This document shows, piece after piece, positions 10,284 through 22,973 of a DNA stretch of 33,102 bases (position 1 is the stretch's first letter; the number at the start of each line of letters is the position of its first letter). Source of the stretch: Anaerolineae bacterium (GTDB lineage Bacteria; Chloroflexota; Anaerolineae; UBA1429). The stretch covers positions 1-33,102 of the forward strand of contig JAGGYI010000210.1 in NCBI GenBank assembly GCA_021162655.1, written 5' to 3'. The notes below the pieces were generated by a model, which saw only the letters and a program-made list of their open reading frames with translations, ran no database searches and was not told the DNA's origin. The translations under genes were made by a program, and so were the position numbers.

Positions 10284-11693
10284 TTACTTGGTCCATTCGG
10301 TGTGGAAGATGCCTTCTTTGTCTATGCGCCGATAAGTGTGGGCGCCGAAATAGTCTCGCTGGGCCTGGGTGAGATTAGCAGGGAGCCTTTCTGAACGGTA
10401 GGCATCGAAATAGGCTAGGGAAGCGCTGAAGGCAAGGCAGGGGATTCCCAGCCCCACGGCCGTTTGGATAACTCGCCGCAAAGAGTCTTGCCGAGAGACA
10501 AAGGCCTCTTTAAAGTAGGGGTCGAGTAACAGGTTGGTCAGTTCAGGGTTGCGTTCGTACGCCTGGGTAATGTCATTAAGGAAACGCGCTCGAATGATGC
10601 AACCTCCTCGCCAGATCTTGGCAATGTTTCCTAGGTTGAGGTTGTAGTCATATTCTTTGGATGCGGCCTTGAGCAGAGCCATTCCCTGGGCGTAGGAGCA
10701 AATCTTGGCTGCATAGAGAGCATTACGAACATCCTGAAAGAGCTGGTCGCGGTCGCCGTCAAAAGTTGCTGTAGGACCTGTGAGGATCTTGCTGGCAGCT
10801 ACCCGCTCTTCCTTGTAGGCAGAGATGATTCGCGAGGTAACGGCAGCGTTGATGGTTGGAATGGGAGCCCCAATGTCTAAGGCATCCTGAGAGGTCCATT
10901 TGCCCGTACCTTTTTGTTTGGCCTCGTCAAGGATGAGGTCCACGAGAGGTTTGCCCGTCTCTTCATCGATCTTGGCGAAAATGTCGCGGGTGATCTCGAT
11001 GAGGTAGGATTGAAGTTCTCCTTCGTTCCACTCGGCAAAGATCTCATGGAGCTCCTGGGCGGAGAGCCCTAGAGCCCTGCGCATGATATCGTAGGATTCG
11101 GCGATTAGCTGCATGTCGCCATATTCGATGCCATTATGTACCATCTTGACATAGTGCCCGGCACCGCGCGGGCCAATGTAGGTGACGCAGGGTTCACCAT
11201 CTACCTTGGCAGCGATGGCGGTAAAGATGGGCTCGACCATCTTGTAGGCTTCGGGTTGCCCACCTGGCATAATGGCTGGTCCCCAAAGAGCTCCAGCCTC
11301 GCCCCCTGAGACGCCCGTACCAATGTAATTGATTTTGAGAGCAGCGAGTTCCTCTGAGCGACGCTCAGTATCTTTGTAAAAAGAGTTTCCGCCATCGATG
11401 ATCAGGTCTCCGGGCTCAAGCAGGGGCTTGAGTTGAGAGATCATCTGATCGACAGGCTCCCCTGCTTTGACCATGAGCATGATTTTGCGTGGTTTCTCTA
11501 GAGAATCGACCAACTCTTTGAGAGAGTAGCATCCTTTGATCCTTTTCCCTTGAGCGCGTTTTTCGATGAACTCCTTGGTGCGAGCAGCAGTACGGTTGTA
11601 AACGGCCACTGAAAACCCATTGCGCTCGATATTCAGGACAAGGTTCTGGCCCATCACAGCCAGACCAATCAAGCCAAACTGATAGCGTTCCAT
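10284..11693 (-). CDS. gnd: 6-phosphogluconate dehydrogenase (decarboxylating)
   Basis: [92 protein letters not shown]-terminal [17 protein letters not shown]. Confidence 0.96.
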
Positions 11694-11712
11694 CTCAATC
11701 CTCCTTCACTCA

Positions 11713-12966
11713 CTATGCTTTCTGGCGGAGCCGGTAGAGCTTCTCTCCTGCTCGAGGCACTACCAGTATCCCTTCGTCCTCTCGTCCCATCCATTCCTCT
11801 GGGTTGATGGTGGCGGGATCCATGTAGCCAAGGTTGATTCTCTCGCAACGCTCTTTGGGAACCCCGGTTGCCAGGACCACATTGATCCGAGGCTTCTCAA
11901 CCCCATTCTCAAAGGTGCCTGCTCCTTTCACATGGGTGGCATGGGCCATCACAGTGCGTGGAACCCCTGCAAACTTGTCCATTTGTTTAAGGAAATAATC
12001 TCGTACGTGGTAGCCGATCTGGTCAAGGATTTTCCCATGTGTATAAGAGATTTCAGTGATGTGCGGAGCGTAGATAATCACGGTGCCTCCATCGGCGACC
12101 ACTGGCTCCATTTTGTACATCCCTTTGGCTGCGGTCCAAATGTCATCATAGAGTTCGGGCATCACAGAGAGGACCGTCTGGTAAGGTCTGTCGACGTAGG
12201 TGATGTTCACCCGTGCCGAAAGCTCAGCTGCCGCTCTTTGGGATTCCTCGGGAGTGCCAAAGTAAAGCCCGTTTAGGTCATGATGTCCTTGAACGACGAG
12301 GCTGAAGCAGGACTTGGGGACGTCGATCAAGCTAGCGGCACGGTCGATCACCCGGCGCACAGGGGTGTCTTCATGACCGATGATCTTGAGGTTTGTGATG
12401 ACGGCCCCAAGCCAATGGGTAAAGTCGATGACATTAGGCCCGCTGACACCGGGGAAAAAGTATTTATTCCCACCGGAGAATCCGACCACTTCATGAGGGA
12501 AGACAGGACCACAGATGATGATCCGGTCATAGTTAAAGAGGCGTTCATTCACCTCTACATGGACGTCCTCTTCCATCAATCCCTTACTTAGTTCGCGGAT
12601 CTCCCGGGCAGGAATTGTGCCAATATCCTTGAGGCCTTCTTTCCAGTTGTGATTGTAGATACCGACATGGGCATACTTGGAATGACGTTCCTCTGGGGTG
12701 ATCCCAAAGTGGTGGCAGATCCGCTCTTCGTTCAGGGGCAGGTGGGTGCCTAAAGCGATGAGGAAGTCTAGCTTGGCGGGCTCTTGCCCCAGGAGTTCAG
12801 TGATCAAGTGGAAAAGTAGAGCAAAGGGCCCACTGCGTGTGGTATCGGGGAAGATAAAGAGCAACTTCTTCCCCGAAGTTTCGATCTGTCCAAGTCCTTC
12901 AGCGAGGATTCCCCTGATCTCTTGCTCTGTCAGGAAACGGTCTGAGTAACCTTTGCCAATAACCAT
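11713..12966 (-). CDS. LarA-superfamily nickel-dependent 2-hydroxyacid racemase/epimerase
   Basis: ALGTHLPL, FPHEVVGFSGGNKYFFPGVSGPNVIDFTHWLGA: motifs and H-(10)-K-(16)-H spacing match LarA His174/Lys184/His200. Confidence 0.88.
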   Translation of the reverse strand: MVIGKGYSDRFLTEQEIRGILAEGLGQIETSGKKLLFIFPDTTRSGPFALLFHLITELLGQEPAKLDFLIALGTHLPLNEERICHHFGITPEERHSKYAHVGIYNHNWKEGLKDIGTIPAREIRELSKGLMEEDVHVEVNERLFNYDRIIICGPVFPHEVVGFSGGNKYFFPGVSGPNVIDFTHWLGAVITNLKIIGHEDTPVRRVIDRAASLIDVPKSCFSLVVQGHHDLNGLYFGTPEESQRAAAELSARVNITYVDRPYQTVLSVMPELYDDIWTAAKGMYKMEPVVADGGTVIIYAPHITEISYTHGKILDQIGYHVRDYFLKQMDKFAGVPRTVMAHATHVKGAGTFENGVEKPRINVVLATGVPKERCERINLGYMDPATINPEEWMGREDEGILVVPRAGEKLYRLRQKA

Positions 12967-12972
12967 GTTTTC

Positions 12973-13869
12973 TTACCTCTTCCAAGGCGGAGTGTCTGGG
13001 AGAGCCTTTTCAAAGTCGGCGATCAGTTTCGCCTCGTACTCTCCCCCATAGGTGCCTTCTAGGAATCGTTGGAAGGCTTCTTTGTAGAACCGCTCCCAGC
13101 TTTCTTCTTCGTGGCCTGGGTTTACGGGGAAAAAGAAGGCATTGTTCGCCCGCGCGGCTTTTAAATCGCCAGGGGCATCTCCGATCATAAGCTTGTGATC
13201 ATCTGCGTATTTGCCTTCTGAAGCATAGCGTAGGTGCTCCGTTTTGGTACCCATCTCTTGCCCGGCGATGACTCGTACGTAACCATCGATGTTGTGCTCT
13301 TTCCATTCGCGCACAAGGGCCTCGACGGGCGTCTGAGAGACGACGATAGCATCTGCATGTTTGCTAATAAGTTCGAGACTCTCGCGAACATATGGGAATG
13401 GGGGTACGCCATGGACCATGTCAGCAATTGTCGCATTGACAGCCTTGCTCCATTCGAGAGCTTTGATCAGTTCGGGGTCTTGGGTTTCTTCGACGAGCTT
13501 TGCCAGAGAGTCGTTGCTCAGAGGGAGGCCAGAATTGATGAACTCGCGGATCTTGGGTGTATCAGGGATGACGGCGTGCCGTCGTTGTACTTCTGGGCGT
13601 TCGCGCAAAAGGTCAAAAACCATCATTAACGCGGGCCAGCGGTTGATGCCCCGCCACTTTGAGTAAAGATTGACGAATTCGGCGGCTTCGCGGGCATATT
13701 TAGAGACCGCTTGGAGGTTCCAGTGCTTGATGATATTGGGGATGAAACACTCCTTGTGTTTGATTTCCATCGTGTCAAAAACACAGCCGTCAGAGTCGAT
13801 CCCGACAAAAAAGTCGAATTGGGGTTTCAGCTCTACAAGAGGACGAGCTACTTCGGGAATCTCTGCCAT
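12973..13869 (-). CDS. HAD-superfamily hydrolase
   Basis: GIDSDGCVFDT (motif I), VVSQTP (II), GTKTEHL (III), MIGDAPGDLKAA (IV). Confidence 0.85.
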   Translation of the reverse strand: MAEIPEVARPLVELKPQFDFFVGIDSDGCVFDTMEIKHKECFIPNIIKHWNLQAVSKYAREAAEFVNLYSKWRGINRWPALMMVFDLLRERPEVQRRHAVIPDTPKIREFINSGLPLSNDSLAKLVEETQDPELIKALEWSKAVNATIADMVHGVPPFPYVRESLELISKHADAIVVSQTPVEALVREWKEHNIDGYVRVIAGQEMGTKTEHLRYASEGKYADDHKLMIGDAPGDLKAARANNAFFFPVNPGHEEESWERFYKEAFQRFLEGTYGGEYEAKLIADFEKALPDTPPWKR

Positions 13870-13905
13870 GGTCGCACTCCTTTCCTTTTTTCCTTGGCTT
13901 GGAGC

Positions 13906-14739
13906 CTAGACTCCGCTAAAGGCGGCAAATCCGCCGTCGACGATCACCGTGGTGCCGTGCACGAATTTGGCCCCCGGTGAAAGCAACCAGATCACCGTAG
14001 ACATGAGTTCCTCTGGATCACCGTAGCGCCCCATGGGGGTGTGGTCGATGATCGTCTTCCCACGAGGAGTCATCTCTCCCGTTTTCTCATCAATTAGGAG
14101 GAAACGATTTTGGTTCGTCAAGAAAAAGCCCGGAGCAATGGCATTGACCCGGATTTGGGTCGAATAGTTCTGCGACATGTGGACGGCCAGCCATTCGGTA
14201 AAGTTCTTGACGGCTGCCTTGGCGGCCGAGTAGGCAGGAATGTTGGTTAGTGGGCGAATCGCATTGATGGAGGCAATGTTGAGGATGATTCCTTTGCCTT
14301 TTTCTGCCATATAGCGTCCGAAAACTTGAGTGGGCAACAGTACGCCGATAAAGTTAAGATTGAATACCCACTGAAAAGCATCTTCGGGGAGATCGAAGAA
14401 GCGGAGCTCTGGCGTCGTGGTAGCTTCTTTTTTGTTGCCGCCTGCACCGTTGATAAGCACATCGACGGTGCCAAATTTCTCAAGTACTTGGGTGGCGCAC
14501 TTTTCTAGCGTCTCTTTCGAGAGAACGTCAGCATAGAGAGCGATGGCCTCTCCCCCCGCTTGGGTGATGTCGTCGACGACTTTTTGCGCAGCCTCCAAAG
14601 AGATGTCGAGCACGGCGATCTTGGCGCCTGCCTTGGCCAATCCTCGGGCCATCGTGCCGCATAGAATGCCACCTCCCCCGGTGATGACGATCACCTGATC
14701 TTTGACTGTGAACAATTCATTGAGGTATTCCGTTTCCAT
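13906..14739 (-). CDS. SDR-family oxidoreductase, probable D-mannonate oxidoreductase / fructuronate reductase type
   Basis: TGGGGILCGTMARGLAKAGAKIAVLD Rossmann motif, NGAGGN, YSAAKAAVKNFTEW catalytic YxxxK; sits beside the uxaE homologue. Confidence 0.82.
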   Translation of the reverse strand: METEYLNELFTVKDQVIVITGGGGILCGTMARGLAKAGAKIAVLDISLEAAQKVVDDITQAGGEAIALYADVLSKETLEKCATQVLEKFGTVDVLINGAGGNKKEATTTPELRFFDLPEDAFQWVFNLNFIGVLLPTQVFGRYMAEKGKGIILNIASINAIRPLTNIPAYSAAKAAVKNFTEWLAVHMSQNYSTQIRVNAIAPGFFLTNQNRFLLIDEKTGEMTPRGKTIIDHTPMGRYGDPEELMSTVIWLLSPGAKFVHGTTVIVDGGFAAFSGV

Positions 14740-14743
14740 AGTT

Positions 14744-16297
14744 TCACTCCTCTGTAGATTTTGCTGAACTAAAGGGCTCCAGATGCTTGCTCAGATGGGT
14801 TTCTAGAGCATTGTAATGCGTTTCTTCGTTGGCTTCCAGCACTTTGAAAAGGCGATCGCGGAAGAGATAGTGCCCTGAGCCGTCTTGAGCGGTTAATACT
14901 GTGCCGAACGTAACGTGGAGAACTTGGCGGGCATCGAACTGATAGAGTACTTGGACAAGGTCCTGATCGTTCAAGTCGCTTGGGTTTGGCACTCGGTTGA
15001 GCTGGGCCGAGACGTGATAGGAGACTTTGTCCTTCTCATAGTTGGCGATGGCAAAAGTTAGAATCTCTCGAAAAAGAGCAGGATCCACTTGGGCAATGGC
15101 GTGAAGCGCCTCTAGGTAGCTGGTACCTGCTGTCTTGAGGTGGACAAGCTCACCCGCCAGCCGTGCAATGAGGGGATAGATGCTAAACTTGTCTGAGCCA
15201 GAATGGAGGCTGAGCTTGTAGGGCCCCAATGCCTTGGCTACTGCGACATGGCGTTTAAAAGTTTTTTCGAAAAGTGTGAGATCGCCAATATAGTCTACCC
15301 CCTTTTCAAAACGGCCGATGTAGCGGGGAGCCAAGCTGACCCATTCCACGCCTAGCCGACCGAGTTCACTGGCGATGAAAAAGTGTTCTTCTGGCTTGGT
15401 AGGAGTGTCCGTCTCGTCTACCGAGATTTCGAGCTCAAAGGGGCGCCCCGCTAGTCGCGTTTTCAGGTGCTGGTAGAGTTCTGCCAAGTGGGCCAAAGCC
15501 TGGCCATATTTGCATGCTGCTCGCAAAAGAGTTTCCTCTGTCATGTGGAGAGTGCAGTCTGGGGAGAGGGTCCAGTCTTTGCCGGCATAAGTCCGCATAG
15601 TCTCCTCAGCCGTGCTATGTAGGCGTCCCCAAGGAAGGGAGTAGAACTTTTGACGCAATGTATCCAAAGAGTCCGTTTCTGCTTGGTTGTCTACATGTTC
15701 TCGCGGGTCGAGGGTGTACATGATAAAGCCAGCTGTTACACAGCGATCGATATCCTCTTTGGTCTTTAGATGATCTGCATCGGCACCGAAACCCTCTCGC
15801 CAACCCTCTTGAAAGACTCCCCAGGTAGCAGAGTCTATAACTTGCTCTGGAGAGCGATGTGTGCGTTCCATCTCACGGATCGATTGCTGAGCAAGCACCC
15901 CAAAGATTCCTGGAGCATGTCGTAAAGCTCGGATGTGCCCTGGTGTGGCAATGCCCAATCTATCGCCCAAGCCAGCTGATTTGCGCAAACCTACCCGTAC
16001 AGGTGCGGTGAACGGCAGAGCTCGACGCAGGGCCTCTGCGTTTTGATGATTTGCTTGCCCGATTCCCAGGAAAAGTTGCTGACCGTGAAATTCGACCTGC
16101 CTTGTTGAGAGATCAAAGTCCTCGGGCAATGAGGAACCGAGCATACCTAGGAAGCGCTCACCCTTTTGTTTAGCGAGGAAAAAGAGTACTCCATCCTTTG
16201 TGGTGATGGAGCGGGAATAGACCTCTAACCCAGAGATGACAGCAAGTTCCTGGGGCAGATTGTCTGACTTTTGAATGAGCTCTTTGAGGTTGGCCAT
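14744..16297 (-). CDS. uxaE: Tagaturonate epimerase family protein (UxaE-like)
   Basis: VGLRKSAGLGDRLGIATPGHIRALR, FGADADHLKTKEDIDRCVTAGFIMYTLDPREHVDNQ, LSLHSGSDKFSIYP; ATG 16297 with GGAAGGAG RBS. Confidence 0.8.
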   Translation of the reverse strand: MANLKELIQKSDNLPQELAVISGLEVYSRSITTKDGVLFFLAKQKGERFLGMLGSSLPEDFDLSTRQVEFHGQQLFLGIGQANHQNAEALRRALPFTAPVRVGLRKSAGLGDRLGIATPGHIRALRHAPGIFGVLAQQSIREMERTHRSPEQVIDSATWGVFQEGWREGFGADADHLKTKEDIDRCVTAGFIMYTLDPREHVDNQAETDSLDTLRQKFYSLPWGRLHSTAEETMRTYAGKDWTLSPDCTLHMTEETLLRAACKYGQALAHLAELYQHLKTRLAGRPFELEISVDETDTPTKPEEHFFIASELGRLGVEWVSLAPRYIGRFEKGVDYIGDLTLFEKTFKRHVAVAKALGPYKLSLHSGSDKFSIYPLIARLAGELVHLKTAGTSYLEALHAIAQVDPALFREILTFAIANYEKDKVSYHVSAQLNRVPNPSDLNDQDLVQVLYQFDARQVLHVTFGTVLTAQDGSGHYLFRDRLFKVLEANEETHYNALETHLSKHLEPFSSAKSTEE

Positions 16298-16316
16298 AGG
16301 TACTCCTTCCGAGTTT

Positions 16317-17351
16317 TTAGGCGGACTCTCTGAGGATGAGTTCTGCATCGAGAAGAATTGGAGGAGGGGTTGATTCAGGTTTGGTCATGAGATCGAGTAG
16401 TAGGGCCATGGCTCTCTCTCCGATCTGGTATTTGGGCATGCGCATGGTGGAGAGGGGTGGAGTAGCATAGGAAGCAAAGATGATATCATCCCAGCCCAAG
16501 AGAGCACAGTCTTTGGGAACTTGGCGCCCCAAAGTGCGACAGGCTTGAAGCACTCCGAAGGCTACCAGGTCGTTGTATGCTAGGATTGCGGTCACCTCGG
16601 GATGCTCTGAAAGAAGTTTGAGAGCCGCTTGGCGTCCACCCTCAACATCAGGAGAACAAGGGAGGCACCAAGAATCCTCAGTGGTTAGGCCCGCAGTGCG
16701 CATCGCCTTTAGATAGCCCTGCCGCCGTTCCATCCCCGAGCGAGATTTGGGCGACCCACCCAAAAAGGCGATGCAGCGATGCCCTTGCGATACTAGATAG
16801 CGCACAGCTCTAAAGGCAGCCTCCGCATCGTTTACTAGTACGTAGCCAACACCTGGACGCGGCCTCTGGAGGCGGTTGATAAGGACGATGGGTTGCCAAG
16901 TCTCGATGGCTTGGTGCAGCCGCTCATCAGTGAGTCGAGAGCTGATGAGCAAAAGCCCATCGACCCTATGGGCCTCTAGCATATGAAGGATAGCCCATTC
17001 ACGTTCAGGGCGCTCATCGGTGTTGCAGAGCAACACACCGTAGTGTCTGCTGTGGGCGATCTCGGAAGCTCCACGCACCACTTCGGCGAAAAAGGGGTTT
17101 GCGATGTCAGGGACGACCACTCCCACCGTAAGGGTGCGGTTTGTTTTTAGTCCACGGGCAATGCTGTTGGGACGGTAGCCCATCTCTTGGGCGATGGCAA
17201 GAATGCGTTGCCGAGTCTCTGGGCTGATCTCGCCTTTGTTATTGATCGCCCTGGACACCGTTTGGGGAGAGACGCCCGCCCTCTGGGCCACATCCCGGAT
17301 GGTAACGTGGCGATTCCTTCGCTTCCCGTGATCGTTCACGTGATCGTTCAC
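16317..17351 (-). CDS. LacI-family transcriptional regulator
   Basis: VTIRDVAQRAGVSPQTVSRAINNKGEISPETRQRI HTH; VGVVVPDIANPFFAEVVRGASEIA periplasmic-binding-like domain. Start uncertain: GTG 17351 or GTG 17339. Confidence 0.92.
   Translation of the reverse strand: MNDHVNDHGKRRNRHVTIRDVAQRAGVSPQTVSRAINNKGEISPETRQRILAIAQEMGYRPNSIARGLKTNRTLTVGVVVPDIANPFFAEVVRGASEIAHSRHYGVLLCNTDERPEREWAILHMLEAHRVDGLLLISSRLTDERLHQAIETWQPIVLINRLQRPRPGVGYVLVNDAEAAFRAVRYLVSQGHRCIAFLGGSPKSRSGMERRQGYLKAMRTAGLTTEDSWCLPCSPDVEGGRQAALKLLSEHPEVTAILAYNDLVAFGVLQACRTLGRQVPKDCALLGWDDIIFASYATPPLSTMRMPKYQIGERAMALLLDLMTKPESTPPPILLDAELILRESA
17328..17351. repeat. Tandem 12-bp repeat GTGATCGTTCAC x2, each a dyad; putative LacI operator
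   Basis: CGTGATCGTTCACGTGATCGTTCACG: two adjacent exact copies with GTGA/TCAC arms. Confidence 0.75.
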
Positions 17352-17485: not shown

Positions 17486-19768
17486 ATGAAAAAGGCACGT
17501 GCGCTCGTTCTAGGGATCCTCCAGCAGGGTGAGCTGTATGGTTACCAGATCAAAAAAATGTTCCAGGAGGAACGCTTTAGCACGTGGGCTACTCTTCCGA
17601 TCGCCTCCCTTTACCATGAATTGAATAAAATGGCCGAGGAAGGGCTCATTGAACGTGTGGCTACCCAGTCTTCAAAAGGGCGCCCTGCACGGACGATCTA
17701 TCGGATCACTGAGCGGGGGCGCCAGGAGCTGAGCCACCTCTTGCGCAAGGCCTGGCTAGAGATGGAACCTCCCCGTTCCTCTCAGGACATTGCGGTCTTT
17801 TTTATGAATTCTCTACCTGAAGAAGAAGTGCTGAGTATGCTGCGTGAGCGCCTGGCAAAGCTTGAGGAAAAGTTACGCTGTGTGGAACGGGCATTGGAAA
17901 AGCAGGCTCGGCAGGCCGCAAGTCCTTCAACCCTTAGGGCCGTTTTAGATCACGCTCAGCTGCGCATCCTCGGGGAGATCGAGTGGACCCAGCACCTGAT
18001 TCGCGCCATTGAGAAGGGGGAGTTTAGGGCGCGTGCAAAGGAAGAAGCGCGGCGAGCTTCTTTGCGCAAGACGAAGGGGATAGGTGCTTTCACCTTTGTT
18101 TTGCATAGCCATTTACCGTATTGTCGGATGGCGGGCCAGTGGCCTCATGGTGAAGAATGGCTCCACGAAGCCTTGGCGGAGACGTATATTCCCCTTTTAA
18201 ACGCTCTTTATGATCTCAAAGAGGAAGGGGTCCCCTTCAAGCTGACGCTGAGTTTGACCCCCGTGCTTACTGAGCAACTCGCTGATCCCGATGTCCGCCG
18301 TCATTTTCTTCTTTATTTAGATCGTGAGATTGAGGTCGCACGTCGGGACATCCTCCGATTTGGTGAGATGGGCGATGCCCATTTGGAGTATTTGGCCGCT
18401 TTTTACCGAGATTATTATCTTCGTATTAAGGAGAGCTTTCTCCAGCGTTTTGCGGGAGATGTGATCCTGGCCTTCAAGCGTTTGCAGGACGAGGGATATG
18501 TAGAGATCGTTACCTCAGCGGCGACCCATGGATACCTTCCCCTCCTTGCGCGGGATTCCTCTATATATGGGCAATTGCGGACAGGCGTCGAGAGCTACAG
18601 GCGCTTTTTTGGACGTTCTCCAAGGGCTATATGGCTCCCCGAGTGTGCTTATCGCCCTGCTTACCATGAAGATGGCCTAGTGCGTCCTGCGTTAGAAGAG
18701 TTTTTGGCTCCGTTAGGATTGACTTGCTTCTTTGTAGAGACTCATGCCATAGAAGGAGGGCGCCCCGTAGGAAAGGCTGCGGGGGAGGTTGCCATTGGCC
18801 CGTACAGTGCCATCAGAAGGCGCTATGTGATTCCTATAGAGGAACGGGAGGCGACAGGAGGGACGACGTATTCTGCATACTATGTGGTGGGCAGTGATAA
18901 AGGGTTGACGGATCCTCCTGTTGCAGTCATCGGGCGGAACAACCGCACTGGGCAGCAGGTCTGGTCGGCGGATTGGGGTTATCCAGGGGATGCAGATTAT
19001 CGAGAATTTCACAAAAAAGATGGCGAGTCGGGCTTGCAATATTGGCGCGTCACTGGGCCAAAGGTCGATTTAGGCGGCAAGGATTACTATCACCCTGATT
19101 GGGCTGAGTATAAGGTGGAGCAGCATGCTCAGCATTTCGCCTCGCTGGTAGAGGATTTGCTTCGTTCCTATCATGAGGAAACTTCCAAATATGGGATTGT
19201 CTCTGCGAACTATGATACTGAGCTTTTCGGGCATTGGTGGTTTGAGGGGATAGAGTGGATCAAGCGAGTATTGCGCAAGCTGGCGCAAAGTGACGTGGTG
19301 GACCTGGTAACGGCTAGTGAGTATGTGGAGGTAAATGAGCCGGAAGAAGTGATCGCTCTTCCAGAGAGTTCCTGGGGAGCTGGGGGCACCCATTGGACTT
19401 GGGACAACCCCAAGACGCATTGGATGTGGGAACCAATTCATAGGGCAGAGAAACGCATGGAGAAGCTTGTGCAAAAGTATCCTGCGGCTCAAAAAGAGGC
19501 TCTTGCAGCCCTAAACCAAGCAGCTCGGGAGTTGTTGCTTTTGCAAGCGAGTGATTGGCCCTTTTTGGTGACAACTGGTCAGGCCAAAGAGTATGCAGAG
19601 GCGCGCTTCAAAAAGCACCTTGGGCGTTTTCACCGCCTGGCAGATTTACTCGAGCAGGGGGACCTAGCCGAAGCGGGGCGGTACGCGAGCAAGCTTTACG
19701 AATTGGACAAGATATTTCCTCATATAGATTATCGTTGGTTTGCCCCTCGACAGGGCAATCCCCAGTGA
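17486..19768 (+). CDS. PadR-type winged-helix regulator fused to GH57 1,4-alpha-glucan branching enzyme
   Basis: N-term LVLGILQQGELYGYQIKKMF...LYHELNKMAEEGLIERV...GRPARTIYRITERG (PadR). C-term FTFVLHSHLPYCR, AIWLPECAYRP (catalytic Glu), NYDTELFGHWWFEG (catalytic Asp), SDWPFLVTTGQAKEYAEARFKKHLGRF. No stop codon between them. Confidence 0.88.
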   Translation: MKKARALVLGILQQGELYGYQIKKMFQEERFSTWATLPIASLYHELNKMAEEGLIERVATQSSKGRPARTIYRITERGRQELSHLLRKAWLEMEPPRSSQDIAVFFMNSLPEEEVLSMLRERLAKLEEKLRCVERALEKQARQAASPSTLRAVLDHAQLRILGEIEWTQHLIRAIEKGEFRARAKEEARRASLRKTKGIGAFTFVLHSHLPYCRMAGQWPHGEEWLHEALAETYIPLLNALYDLKEEGVPFKLTLSLTPVLTEQLADPDVRRHFLLYLDREIEVARRDILRFGEMGDAHLEYLAAFYRDYYLRIKESFLQRFAGDVILAFKRLQDEGYVEIVTSAATHGYLPLLARDSSIYGQLRTGVESYRRFFGRSPRAIWLPECAYRPAYHEDGLVRPALEEFLAPLGLTCFFVETHAIEGGRPVGKAAGEVAIGPYSAIRRRYVIPIEEREATGGTTYSAYYVVGSDKGLTDPPVAVIGRNNRTGQQVWSADWGYPGDADYREFHKKDGESGLQYWRVTGPKVDLGGKDYYHPDWAEYKVEQHAQHFASLVEDLLRSYHEETSKYGIVSANYDTELFGHWWFEGIEWIKRVLRKLAQSDVVDLVTASEYVEVNEPEEVIALPESSWGAGGTHWTWDNPKTHWMWEPIHRAEKRMEKLVQKYPAAQKEALAALNQAARELLLLQASDWPFLVTTGQAKEYAEARFKKHLGRFHRLADLLEQGDLAEAGRYASKLYELDKIFPHIDYRWFAPRQGNPQ

Positions 19769-19787: not shown

Positions 19788-20822
19788 GTGGCTATTCCTC
19801 CAAAGAAACGTTCTAAACCATTATATTGGCAGGTTGTCGAGGACATCTCTGCCCAGATCGAAGCCGGGACTTGGCGCCCTGGAGACAAGCTTCCCAGTGA
19901 GCGGGTGCTATGCAAAATGTATCGGGTTAGCCAGATCACCATTCGGAGGGCGTTGAGAGAGCTAGCTCATTTAGGGCGTGTTTACAGTCATCATGGTGTG
20001 GGCTGGTTCGTTTCTGATGCTCCGCTATCTGGCGTGCGACCTCAAGTAGGGCTGTTTGTTTCTTCCTGGGATCGATTAATGGGGCGGTTCATCTGGCACT
20101 TAGCCAAGGAGCTGGCTCAGGCAGGGATGGATCTCTGTTTGCTCCCAGAACCAACCCCTGCTGGAGAGACAGAAGTGCTCCTTTTCGCTGTGGCAGGTCG
20201 GGAGCAAGAGGTGAACGCACATTATGCGCAGCTGAGTGCCCAAAAGGCCTCGGCGCTTTTTCTTTTGCGTGGTTTGAATGAGCAGGCTCCGGCAGCCATC
20301 TTGGATGAGCGCCTGGGGATGGAACAGATCACGCGACACATTCTCAGCATGGGACACCATCGGGTTGCTTATTTGGGCCTTGATCCTGCTCTACTGGAAG
20401 GGCAGCTTCGCTATAGAGGTTTCGTTGAGGTGCTTTGGGAGCATGGGCTTGAGCTTCCCTTGGATTGGGTTTTTGCAGACCTAGAGCGAGAGGGAGAAAG
20501 ATTCCTGCGAGTTTTTCGTCCAGGCTACGGACCTACGGCGCTCGTTTGCGCCTCTGATCTTCAGGCGGCCAGAGCGATGGGCATGCTCCAGGAGGTTGGG
20601 CTTCGATGTCCGGATGATGTAGCCATTGTGGGGCTGGGCGACGAGGAGTTTGCCGCCTTTTTGCCAACGCCCTTGACGACGTTTCGTTTTGATTTGCTGG
20701 AGCTGGCTCGGCGCGTTGCTATGCTCTGCTTGGCTTTTTATGAGGGGAGAGAAGTGGAAAACGTTCGCGTTGCCGGAGAATTGGTTGTGCGGCAAAGCTG
20801 TGGGGCTAGCCAGAGGGCCTGA
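19788..20822 (+). CDS. GntR-type HTH regulator with LacI/PBP1-like effector domain
   Basis: PLYWQVVEDISAQIEAGTWRPGDKLPSERVLCKMYRVSQITIRRALRELAHLGRVYSHHGVGWFV; C-term HHRVAYLGLD...TALVCASDLQAARAMGMLQEVGLRCPDDVAIVGLGD. GTG 19788 with GGGGAGGGG RBS. Confidence 0.85.
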   Translation: MAIPPKKRSKPLYWQVVEDISAQIEAGTWRPGDKLPSERVLCKMYRVSQITIRRALRELAHLGRVYSHHGVGWFVSDAPLSGVRPQVGLFVSSWDRLMGRFIWHLAKELAQAGMDLCLLPEPTPAGETEVLLFAVAGREQEVNAHYAQLSAQKASALFLLRGLNEQAPAAILDERLGMEQITRHILSMGHHRVAYLGLDPALLEGQLRYRGFVEVLWEHGLELPLDWVFADLEREGERFLRVFRPGYGPTALVCASDLQAARAMGMLQEVGLRCPDDVAIVGLGDEEFAAFLPTPLTTFRFDLLELARRVAMLCLAFYEGREVENVRVAGELVVRQSCGASQRA

Positions 20823-20841: not shown

Positions 20842-21984
20842 ATGGGTGAGCGGCGGATACCACAACGTGTGTTAGGCAAAACGGGGTTGAAAGTCTCGGT
20901 TTTGGGCTTGGGGGGCTTTCATCAAGTAGAGATTGGGCAGAGCTATGTGGAAAGACTTGTCGAGCGGTACCTGGAAGCGGGGGGAAACTATATAGAGACT
21001 GCTCGGAGCTATGGGGGAGGTGCGGCTGAGCGTAAACTGGGCCGTGCTCTGGTAGGCAAGAGAGCAGAGATCGTTCTTGTCTCCAAAACAGGGCAGCGTG
21101 AGGCTGAGGGAGCTTGGCAGGAAATTAACGAGTCTTTGGAAGCTCTCAAGACGGACTATCTGGATATCCTCCTCTACCACGGGGTAAATGATCGGGAGGC
21201 GGTGAAAGCGATACTCGCCCCTGGTGGGGCTGCCCAGGCCTTTGCGCGGGCTCGGGAGGAAGGGATGGTGCACTTTATAGGGGTAAGCTCCCACTGGCCG
21301 CAACTTCTTCCCTGGGTGATGGAGCAGCTCGATTTAGATGTGGTGATGTATTGGGTGAATTACTTGGATTTTTGTCATTATCCCGAGATCCCCCAACAAG
21401 TTGCTCCTGCCGCTCGTTCGAAGAGGTTGGGCATTATAGGAATGAAACCGCTGGCAGATGGTTACCTTTATCGTTCTGTCCGGGAGGCGTTCACTTTTGC
21501 TTTGGCTCAGGAAGTGGATGTGCTGGCATGTGGGTTTAACTCCTTAGAGATGTTGGAGAGAGATATCGAGGCGGTTTGTGCCTGGACGCAGCCTAATGTC
21601 CAGGTGTTGGAAACTATTCTCCGGGATGCGCCCGAATTGGGCGATTACGTTTGCCGCCAATGTGGGCAATGTCGCTTGCCCGACTTGGATTTACCCAAGG
21701 TCTTTGAGTTGGAGGGCAAGTTTGACCGCCAGATGTTTGATGGCCGCCCCAAGGAGGCGCCGGATTATGCCCTCCGCCAGCGCTTGGGGCCGTGGTTTCA
21801 CAATCAAGAGAGGGCGATTACTCTTTACAAGCCCTATGCAGAGCGGGTCCGAACTTTTTTGGAAGAGAGCAGACCTTTGCCAGCGTGCCCTTATGGAATC
21901 GATCTTTCATGGAAGCTTCGATTGGCTCATCTAAAGTTGACTAGTGATGGACGTTTCCCAGCTGGAGCAGCCGATGATTTTTAA
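20842..21984 (+). CDS. Aldo/keto reductase family protein with C-terminal Cys cluster
   Basis: RVLGKTGLKVSVLGLGGF, NYIETARSYGGGAAERKLGRAL, LDILLYHGV, FIGVSSH, GIIGMKPLADG; CRQCGQCRLP...ACPYGID. Confidence 0.87.
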   Translation: MGERRIPQRVLGKTGLKVSVLGLGGFHQVEIGQSYVERLVERYLEAGGNYIETARSYGGGAAERKLGRALVGKRAEIVLVSKTGQREAEGAWQEINESLEALKTDYLDILLYHGVNDREAVKAILAPGGAAQAFARAREEGMVHFIGVSSHWPQLLPWVMEQLDLDVVMYWVNYLDFCHYPEIPQQVAPAARSKRLGIIGMKPLADGYLYRSVREAFTFALAQEVDVLACGFNSLEMLERDIEAVCAWTQPNVQVLETILRDAPELGDYVCRQCGQCRLPDLDLPKVFELEGKFDRQMFDGRPKEAPDYALRQRLGPWFHNQERAITLYKPYAERVRTFLEESRPLPACPYGIDLSWKLRLAHLKLTSDGRFPAGAADDF

Positions 21985-21998
21985 GGAGGTAGGGTTCC

Positions 21999-22973
21999 AT
22001 GGCGCGACATGTACGCATCGCAACGGTGGCTCTTTTGGATAGAGGTGGGCCGACGGTAGAAGCGAACAGAGAGCGCATTGCCGCGTTGATAGAACAGGCG
22101 GCCGCGGAAAAGCCTGATATCATTTGTCTCCCAGAGACGTTTTTGGAGCAGGGAGTTTCCTTTACTGATCTGGCTCAAGTAGCGGAGCCGATCCCTGGTC
22201 CGACGATTGACATGGTAGCTGGGTATGCGAAGAAGTATGGCTGCTATATTATTTGCCCGCTAACGGCTATCCACGGCGATAAGTACATGAATGACTCTGT
22301 CTTGCTTGACCGTCGTGGTCAGGTGGTGGGGATCTATTCGAAAATACATCCTGTAGTTGAGGGATCTGAATTTAGGAGCTTGGAAAAAGGGATGACGCCT
22401 GGCACCGAGGCGCGGGTGTTTGATACAGATTTTGGTCGGGTAGGTATGCAGATTTGTTTTGACATTTTTTGGCCAGAGACATGGCAAGAGCTCAAGTGTA
22501 ATGGCGCAGAGATCGTTTTCTGGTCCTCTGCCTACGATGGGGGCAAGCATTTGAGTATTCATGCGTGGAACAACCATTTTTACGTTGTTTCGGCCGTCAA
22601 ATCAAGACGGGCTCGCATCGTTGATGTAATGGGAGAGGTGCTGGGCGTCACTGGGTGGGCTGACCCGGTCATCGCTCGTACAGTGAACCTTGATGTCGAA
22701 GTCTTTCATTGTGATTTCAATCGGTCGCAGATTCCTCTTATCAGAGCCAAGTATGGTCCCGATGTCAAGATACGTCTCTGGCACGAAGAGGATCTCTTTA
22801 CCTTGGAAGCGGAGCGAGAGGGGTTGACGGTAGAGGAGATCATTCGTGAATTCTCCTTGGAGCCTCTCCATGAATACTTGGATCGCAATGCGCGTCTGCA
22901 GGATGCCTGGCGCCGTGGATGGGCTATCCCCGATCTAACCCCGCCTTACGTTGGGAGACCTCAGTGGGAATAG
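21999..22973 (+). CDS. Carbon-nitrogen hydrolase (nitrilase superfamily)
   Basis: Catalytic E-K-C motifs: ICLPETF, GIYSKIHP, VGMQICFDIFWPE. Confidence 0.9.
   Translation: MARHVRIATVALLDRGGPTVEANRERIAALIEQAAAEKPDIICLPETFLEQGVSFTDLAQVAEPIPGPTIDMVAGYAKKYGCYIICPLTAIHGDKYMNDSVLLDRRGQVVGIYSKIHPVVEGSEFRSLEKGMTPGTEARVFDTDFGRVGMQICFDIFWPETWQELKCNGAEIVFWSSAYDGGKHLSIHAWNNHFYVVSAVKSRRARIVDVMGEVLGVTGWADPVIARTVNLDVEVFHCDFNRSQIPLIRAKYGPDVKIRLWHEEDLFTLEAEREGLTVEEIIREFSLEPLHEYLDRNARLQDAWRRGWAIPDLTPPYVGRPQWE

Follow-up and report, generated by a model that had tools for sequence, protein, structure and literature searches.

The window, the whole 33,102-nucleotide stretch of Anaerolineae DNA that was analysed, carries a forward-strand gene in which a PadR-type regulator and a GH57 branching-enzyme-type protein are read as a single polypeptide (Table 1). 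The frame runs without internal stops for 760 amino acids, from an ATG directly preceded by a Shine-Dalgarno-like GGGGAG to a TGA at 19766-19768. A sequence-only reading of this DNA had proposed a fused protein of about 88 kDa with no stop or frameshift between its domains and with the enzyme beginning at FTFVLHSHLPY; its coordinates, boundary and approximate size all held, the GH57 part starting at residue 200. The domain identities that it gave, PadR and a GH57 branching enzyme with its C-terminal domain, were upheld by Pfam, where PadR (residues 8-83) scored 55.3 bits against a cut-off of 27, and Glyco_hydro_57 (residues 203-626, 124 bits) and BE_C (residues 651-752, 115 bits) also scored above their cut-offs. 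The predicted architecture is a PadR winged helix with its helical domain, a short linker, and a complete GH57 branching-enzyme-type protein (residues 200-752).

Table 1. The fused gene, its parts and the genes that follow it, in window positions.
Feature	Position	Strand	Evidence
Fused PadR-GH57 gene	17486..19768	+	Open frame; Pfam domains; full-length homologues in 6 further genera
PadR winged helix-turn-helix domain, residues 8-83 (Pfam stretch); motifs LYGYQI, SLYHELNKMAEEGLIE, GRPARTIYRIT	17507..17734	+	Pfam PF03551, 55 bits; AF2 match to 5x11
PadR C-terminal helical (dimerisation-type) domain, residues ~86-180; conserved E164..W167	17741..18025	+	AF2 helices; weak PF10400 match under cut-off
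Variable linker, residues ~181-199	18026..18082	+	Mean identity 0.19 with many gaps (7 genera); pLDDT <50 at 183-193
GH57 catalytic domain, residues 200-640; conserved E386 (predicted nucleophile) and D577 (predicted acid/base); flexible loop ~426-456	18083..19405	+	Pfam; alignment; top fold match 3n8t
Branching-enzyme C-terminal domain (BE_C), residues ~641-760	19406..19765	+	PF09210, 115 bits
GntR + periplasmic-binding-protein-type regulator, 19 nt 3' of the fused gene	19788..20822	+	Pfam; neighbour comparison
Aldo/keto reductase, next gene of the run	20842..21984	+	Pfam; L031 and L144 have a similar protein following their GntR gene
Carbon-nitrogen hydrolase, next gene of the run	21999..22973	+	Pfam; similar protein downstream in L032

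The fused gene is not adjacent to glycogen genes. Upstream of it lies a divergent LacI-type gene (probable GTG start at 17306), and between the two are tandem perfect copies of a short sequence, GTGATCGTTCAC GTGATCGTTCAC, at 17328-17351; these resemble a LacI-family operator and could also influence the promoter of the fused gene. Behind the LacI-type regulator, a minus-strand run of sugar-acid genes at 10284-17306 encodes a UxaE tagaturonate epimerase, an SDR protein, a HAD protein, a lactate-racemase-like protein and a 6-phosphogluconate dehydrogenase, which together probably form a uronate-type pathway.

The source genome (G000; 3.1 Mb, 96% complete) holds the fused gene in single copy. A domain-architecture search of related genomes, suggested beforehand as a check, recovered the fusion in seven genera of one family: besides the source genome, full-length homologues were present in 6 of 100 relatives, each from a different genus. 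These matches span residue 1 or 2 to residue 758 or 759 in one stop-free frame at 56-66% identity, and four of the six contigs were met again in a separate collection. Such full-length conservation in six other genera places the PadR-GH57 domain order far above chance. A sequencing or assembly error that merged two genes is scarcely credible, as the identical junction occurs in seven separately assembled genomes whose proteins differ this much, no PadR gene adjoins GH57 in unfused relatives, and nothing was found in its favour. The outcomes that had been named as undoing the fusion, a frameshift between the domains, an assembly artefact or two separate genes in close relatives, are thus either excluded or were not seen in the relatives examined.

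The fusion is restricted to these seven genomes out of 92 with a GH57 match (E 1e-60 or better; 396 genomes of the class searched), and a 400-genome sample of the phylum, queried with the PadR part alone, contained no further PadR-GH57 fusion. Within the order (15 genomes), the seven fused genes were the only places where the PadR part was found, and no stand-alone copy of this PadR was detected. Seven other family members have an unfused GH57 gene, one of them (G007) in a gapped assembly. In the unfused relatives examined, GH57 stands alone, with no adjoining PadR gene, and we therefore rejected an ancestral pair of neighbouring PadR and GH57 genes as the source of the fusion. Long N-terminal open frames on other GH57 genes of the class (e.g. 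G042) were also set aside, having no PadR match; the one that was read (G042, L023) appears to be open but non-coding. Other long PadR frames in the phylum sample have the appearance of upstream non-coding extensions, and among those read, the PadR fusions with a genuine extra domain were PadR-DUF4388 proteins. These form a separate family of proteins of about 490-540 amino acids, spread over several Chloroflexota families, that also have another region at the C-terminal end (L124, L125, L126, L127, L128 and L130); DUF4388 was confirmed by Pfam in L124, L127 and L130. Among the open-access papers searched, none names both PadR and GH57, and where PadR, branching enzyme and fusion are all mentioned, titles and abstracts point to no such protein.

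We compared the fused and unfused genes of the family by phylogeny. In a tree of full-length GH57 sequences, the seven fused proteins form one clade (support 93/88), whose sister group consists of six unfused family members (100/96), and the outgroups are unfused. A regulator of GntR type with a sugar-binding-protein domain lies 3' of the fused gene in five genera and of the unfused gene in G003, G005 and G011, and an aldo/keto reductase-like protein follows the GntR gene in G000, G002 and G005 (recognized in part by eye on translations). This common locus indicates that the PadR part was gained by, or lost from, a resident gene. Seven family members have an unfused GH57 gene, which in three of them is followed by the same neighbour, so a single fusion event on a pre-existing GH57 gene is probable. 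When the sequences were shortened to the length available for G007, whose unfused gene is interrupted by two Ns, the tree resolved neither the root of the family nor the position of G007 and the sequence of gain and loss, so the family ancestor may already have gained the PadR part, with losses later. The pieces flanking the NN gap in the G007 gene (L136) overlap in query coverage (residues 514-586) yet differ in sequence, like two joined copies. In G001 and G009, the neighbourhood of the fused gene differs from that in the other genera. Just 5' of the fused gene, these two genomes carry a short protein that resembles, by eye, a GH2-type sugar-binding domain (G009, L138 6019-6498; G001, L137 9354-9812).

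The enzyme half is closely related to known GH57 branching enzymes. Those of solved structure match from residue 200 onward (E down to 1e-141, 41-44% identity), and the NCBIfam models for GH57 branching enzymes gave strong matches that fall under their equivalog cut-offs, which is unsurprising in a distant lineage. The catalytic Glu and Asp motifs noticed in the sequence-only reading are confirmed by alignment: counted on the printed alignment, E386 and D577 correspond to E183 and D354 of T. kodakarensis TK1436 (3n8t), which we take to be the catalytic pair of that enzyme, and both are invariant in a 28-sequence alignment. The roles of the GH57 catalytic Glu as nucleophile and Asp as acid/base have been described (PMC10346327). 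The loop at residues 426-456 contains Y440 and Y447, and the loop tyrosine of 3p0b appears aligned to Ala432. Since branching activity differs widely among GH57 enzymes (PMC10346327) and this loop differs in sequence from that of characterised enzymes, we treat the enzymatic role of the GH57 part as a prediction.

The source genome encodes a GT5 glycogen-synthase-type protein (a frame of 485 amino acids) along with partial or weaker GT5 matches, and its GlgC-like matches all lie under the equivalog cut-off. Alpha-amylase_C, the marker of GH13-type GlgB, gave no match in this genome, and the positive controls, E. coli and B. subtilis among them, were matched. Therefore, the fused gene is the only branching-enzyme candidate found in this 96% complete assembly.

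The seven fused proteins are unevenly conserved along their length. Among these genera, mean pairwise identity falls from 0.71 in GH57 and 0.65 in BE_C to 0.42 in the winged helix, 0.30 in the helical (dimer) domain and 0.19 in the linker. In the winged helix, a rough Nei-Gojobori estimate, of which only the ordering is trustworthy, gave a dN of 0.33-0.50 with a dS that was above 2 or saturated. GC content by codon position in the PadR part is of coding type, and all seven members score above the PadR cut-off of 27 bits (29.5-57 bits). The low identity of the N-terminal part (29-46%, versus 65-74% for GH57) could mean that the fusion was an accidental and harmless event, with a GH57 enzyme that works alone and a passenger PadR part in decay, and unfused orthologues in the same family do manage without PadR. 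However, about 180 codons have been kept open in seven genera with coding-type GC, the hallmark residues are invariant, and the linker diverges far faster than the PadR domain; we consider a neutral passenger quite unlikely. It is very improbable that the fusion is a co-expression device giving two products, a free GH57 enzyme, made from an internal start or by cleavage in the linker, and a separate PadR repressor. All seven genes do have a candidate GTG, TTG or ATG near the linker, but the source genome has only one TTG, seven codons before the GH57 domain and without a clear Shine-Dalgarno sequence, and the start position is not common to the seven genera.

We examined the DNA-binding motifs of the PadR part. 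The YGY motif, the recognition-helix tyrosine and wing residues have been implicated in DNA contact by PadR proteins (PMC3506622), in a motif set listed there for subfamily 2 and applied here to a PadR part of subfamily 1 type. The source genome has all three (LYGYQI, SLYHEL and GRPARTIYRIT). The recognition helix reads YHEL in G000, G001, G002 and G009 and YAEL in G012, and YHEL was not seen in the stand-alone PadR proteins compared from the phylum. In G006 and G004, both the recognition-helix tyrosine (ILETL and LWDML) and the basic wing are gone, and G009 has lost the YGY motif; in these three, PadR scores fall as low as 29.5-33.7 bits, near the cut-off. The net charge of the winged helix is +7 in the source genome, the most basic of the seven, and -1 to -3 in the six others, with a mean of about +1 among the phylum matches compared. 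Given this erosion beside the intact motifs of G000, some genera may have retained PadR function while others lost it.

The same observations bear on the main rival to a regulatory role, in which the PadR part of most members would no longer bind DNA and would serve as a dimerisation or allosteric module that places the enzyme under small-molecule or protein-partner control. Consistent with such a module, DNA-contact residues are lost in G006, G004 and G009, the winged-helix charge is negative outside G000, and the fold core is kept in all seven proteins (Pfam scores over cut-off). On the other hand, conservation is higher in the winged helix than in the dimer domain, contrary to what dimerisation alone predicts, the YHEL surface signature is retained in four genera, and the motifs of G000 are intact on a basic winged helix. 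A winged helix that is retained while the dimer domain is looser speaks for DNA binding over dimerisation alone, and we regard the allosteric module as rather unlikely.

The structural predictions point to a PadR fold as well. PadR regulators of solved structure match residues 5-149 (phmmer E 7e-13). An AF2 model of the PadR part, built from five sequences, has a mean pLDDT of 80. Ranked by E-value, its PDB matches are headed by all eight chains of the B. subtilis PadR-operator complex 5x11, but global superposition on 5x11 is poor (TM ~0.4, rmsd 19), and the fit to M. tuberculosis PadR proteins is better (TM ~0.5-0.6). The C-terminal domain is modelled as helices at 76-91, 98-109, 112-142 and 149-176, in keeping with the 80-90 residues of a dimerisation-type domain, and it matches PF10400 with a sub-threshold 17.8 bits. 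The full-length AF2 model (mean pLDDT 81) first matched GH57 branching enzymes (3n8t, TM 0.87 by target) and also 5x11; confidence is low at the linker (183-193) and the loop (426-456), and how the two halves are placed relative to each other cannot be read from the model. Upstream of the fused genes, neither a canonical ATGT-N8-ACAT operator nor a shared palindrome was found, and near-matches to ATGT/ACAT-type operators within the window are at chance level. The source genome encodes four other PadR proteins scoring over the cut-off. We took a weak match, under the cut-off, to PhaQ, which its NCBIfam name describes as a PadR protein that responds to a storage polymer, as a sign of shared family only.

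Each half resembles well-known proteins. The N-terminal part has the YGY, recognition-helix and wing motifs of PadR subfamily 1 (B. subtilis PadR and AphA; 5x11 and 1yg2), together with a helical C-terminal domain of about 90 residues, but known members are free-standing proteins of about 180 amino acids, several with small-molecule ligands, whereas here 560 enzyme residues follow. The C-terminal part shares its fold, catalytic Glu and Asp, and BE_C domain with GH57 branching enzymes such as TK1436 (3n8t) and those of P. horikoshii (5wu7) and T. thermophilus (3p0b). It differs from the characterised enzymes in its N-terminal regulator and in a longer flexible loop without the aligned PYGE/VYGE tyrosine (Ala432), a loop form that is common to unfused Anaerolineae GH57 enzymes. 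The PadR-DUF4388 proteins of other Chloroflexota (L124, L127 and L130) likewise join PadR to an extra C-terminal domain in one ORF, but with a domain of unknown function as partner and as a separate event. Trigger enzymes such as PutA connect a DNA-binding domain through a linker to a metabolic enzyme fold. The regulator BzdR, which likewise carries an HTH DNA-binding domain on a shikimate-kinase-like fold, is a further parallel (PMC3602430), with DNA binding predicted in our case; catalysis has been lost in BzdR, whereas the catalytic residues are intact here, and the DNA-binding and enzyme families differ. A synthetic BzdR chimera was bifunctional (PMC3602430), and in the PadR protein LmrR, ligand binding moves a C-terminal helix and alters DNA affinity (PMC4235314).

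By analogy with BzdR and with PadR proteins such as LmrR, we read the fused protein as an enzyme-regulator in which a coupling of enzyme state to transcription is plausible. This reading starts from the fusion and its conservation, the intact catalytic and winged-helix motifs of the source genome, the constraint on the winged helix and the linkage to the GntR gene. That the protein is a bifunctional, trigger-enzyme-like regulator, produced when PadR was joined once to the N-terminus of GH57 in one Anaerolineae family, seems to us about evenly balanced. In this mechanism, a subfamily-1 PadR protein would have been joined once to the N-terminus of a resident GH57 branching enzyme. The PadR C-terminal helices would dimerise and set two winged helices on an inverted-repeat operator, while the GH57 part would remodel alpha-glucan. 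Binding of glucan or a glycogen granule by GH57 would shift the orientation or location of the PadR dimer, so that it is released from or fixed on DNA. The likeliest targets would be its own promoter and the downstream GntR, aldo/keto reductase and hydrolase genes. More tentative is the specific proposal that the sole branching enzyme doubles as a transcription factor with sequence-specific DNA binding and that alpha-glucan occupancy switches this binding, giving a direct feedback from polymer to promoter.

Bacterial glycogen synthesis is controlled by small metabolites and global regulators. If the proposed reading is true, a branching enzyme equipped with a one-component DNA-binding domain would sense the storage polymer directly. 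Some members of the family have partly eroded winged helices and others an unfused enzyme at a similar locus, which makes the family a natural example of a DNA-binding domain being recruited to an enzyme and perhaps lost again in some lineages; BzdR has served as a model for such a route (PMC3602430). Through its predicted DNA binding, the fusion may link sugar storage to gene control in these Anaerolineae.
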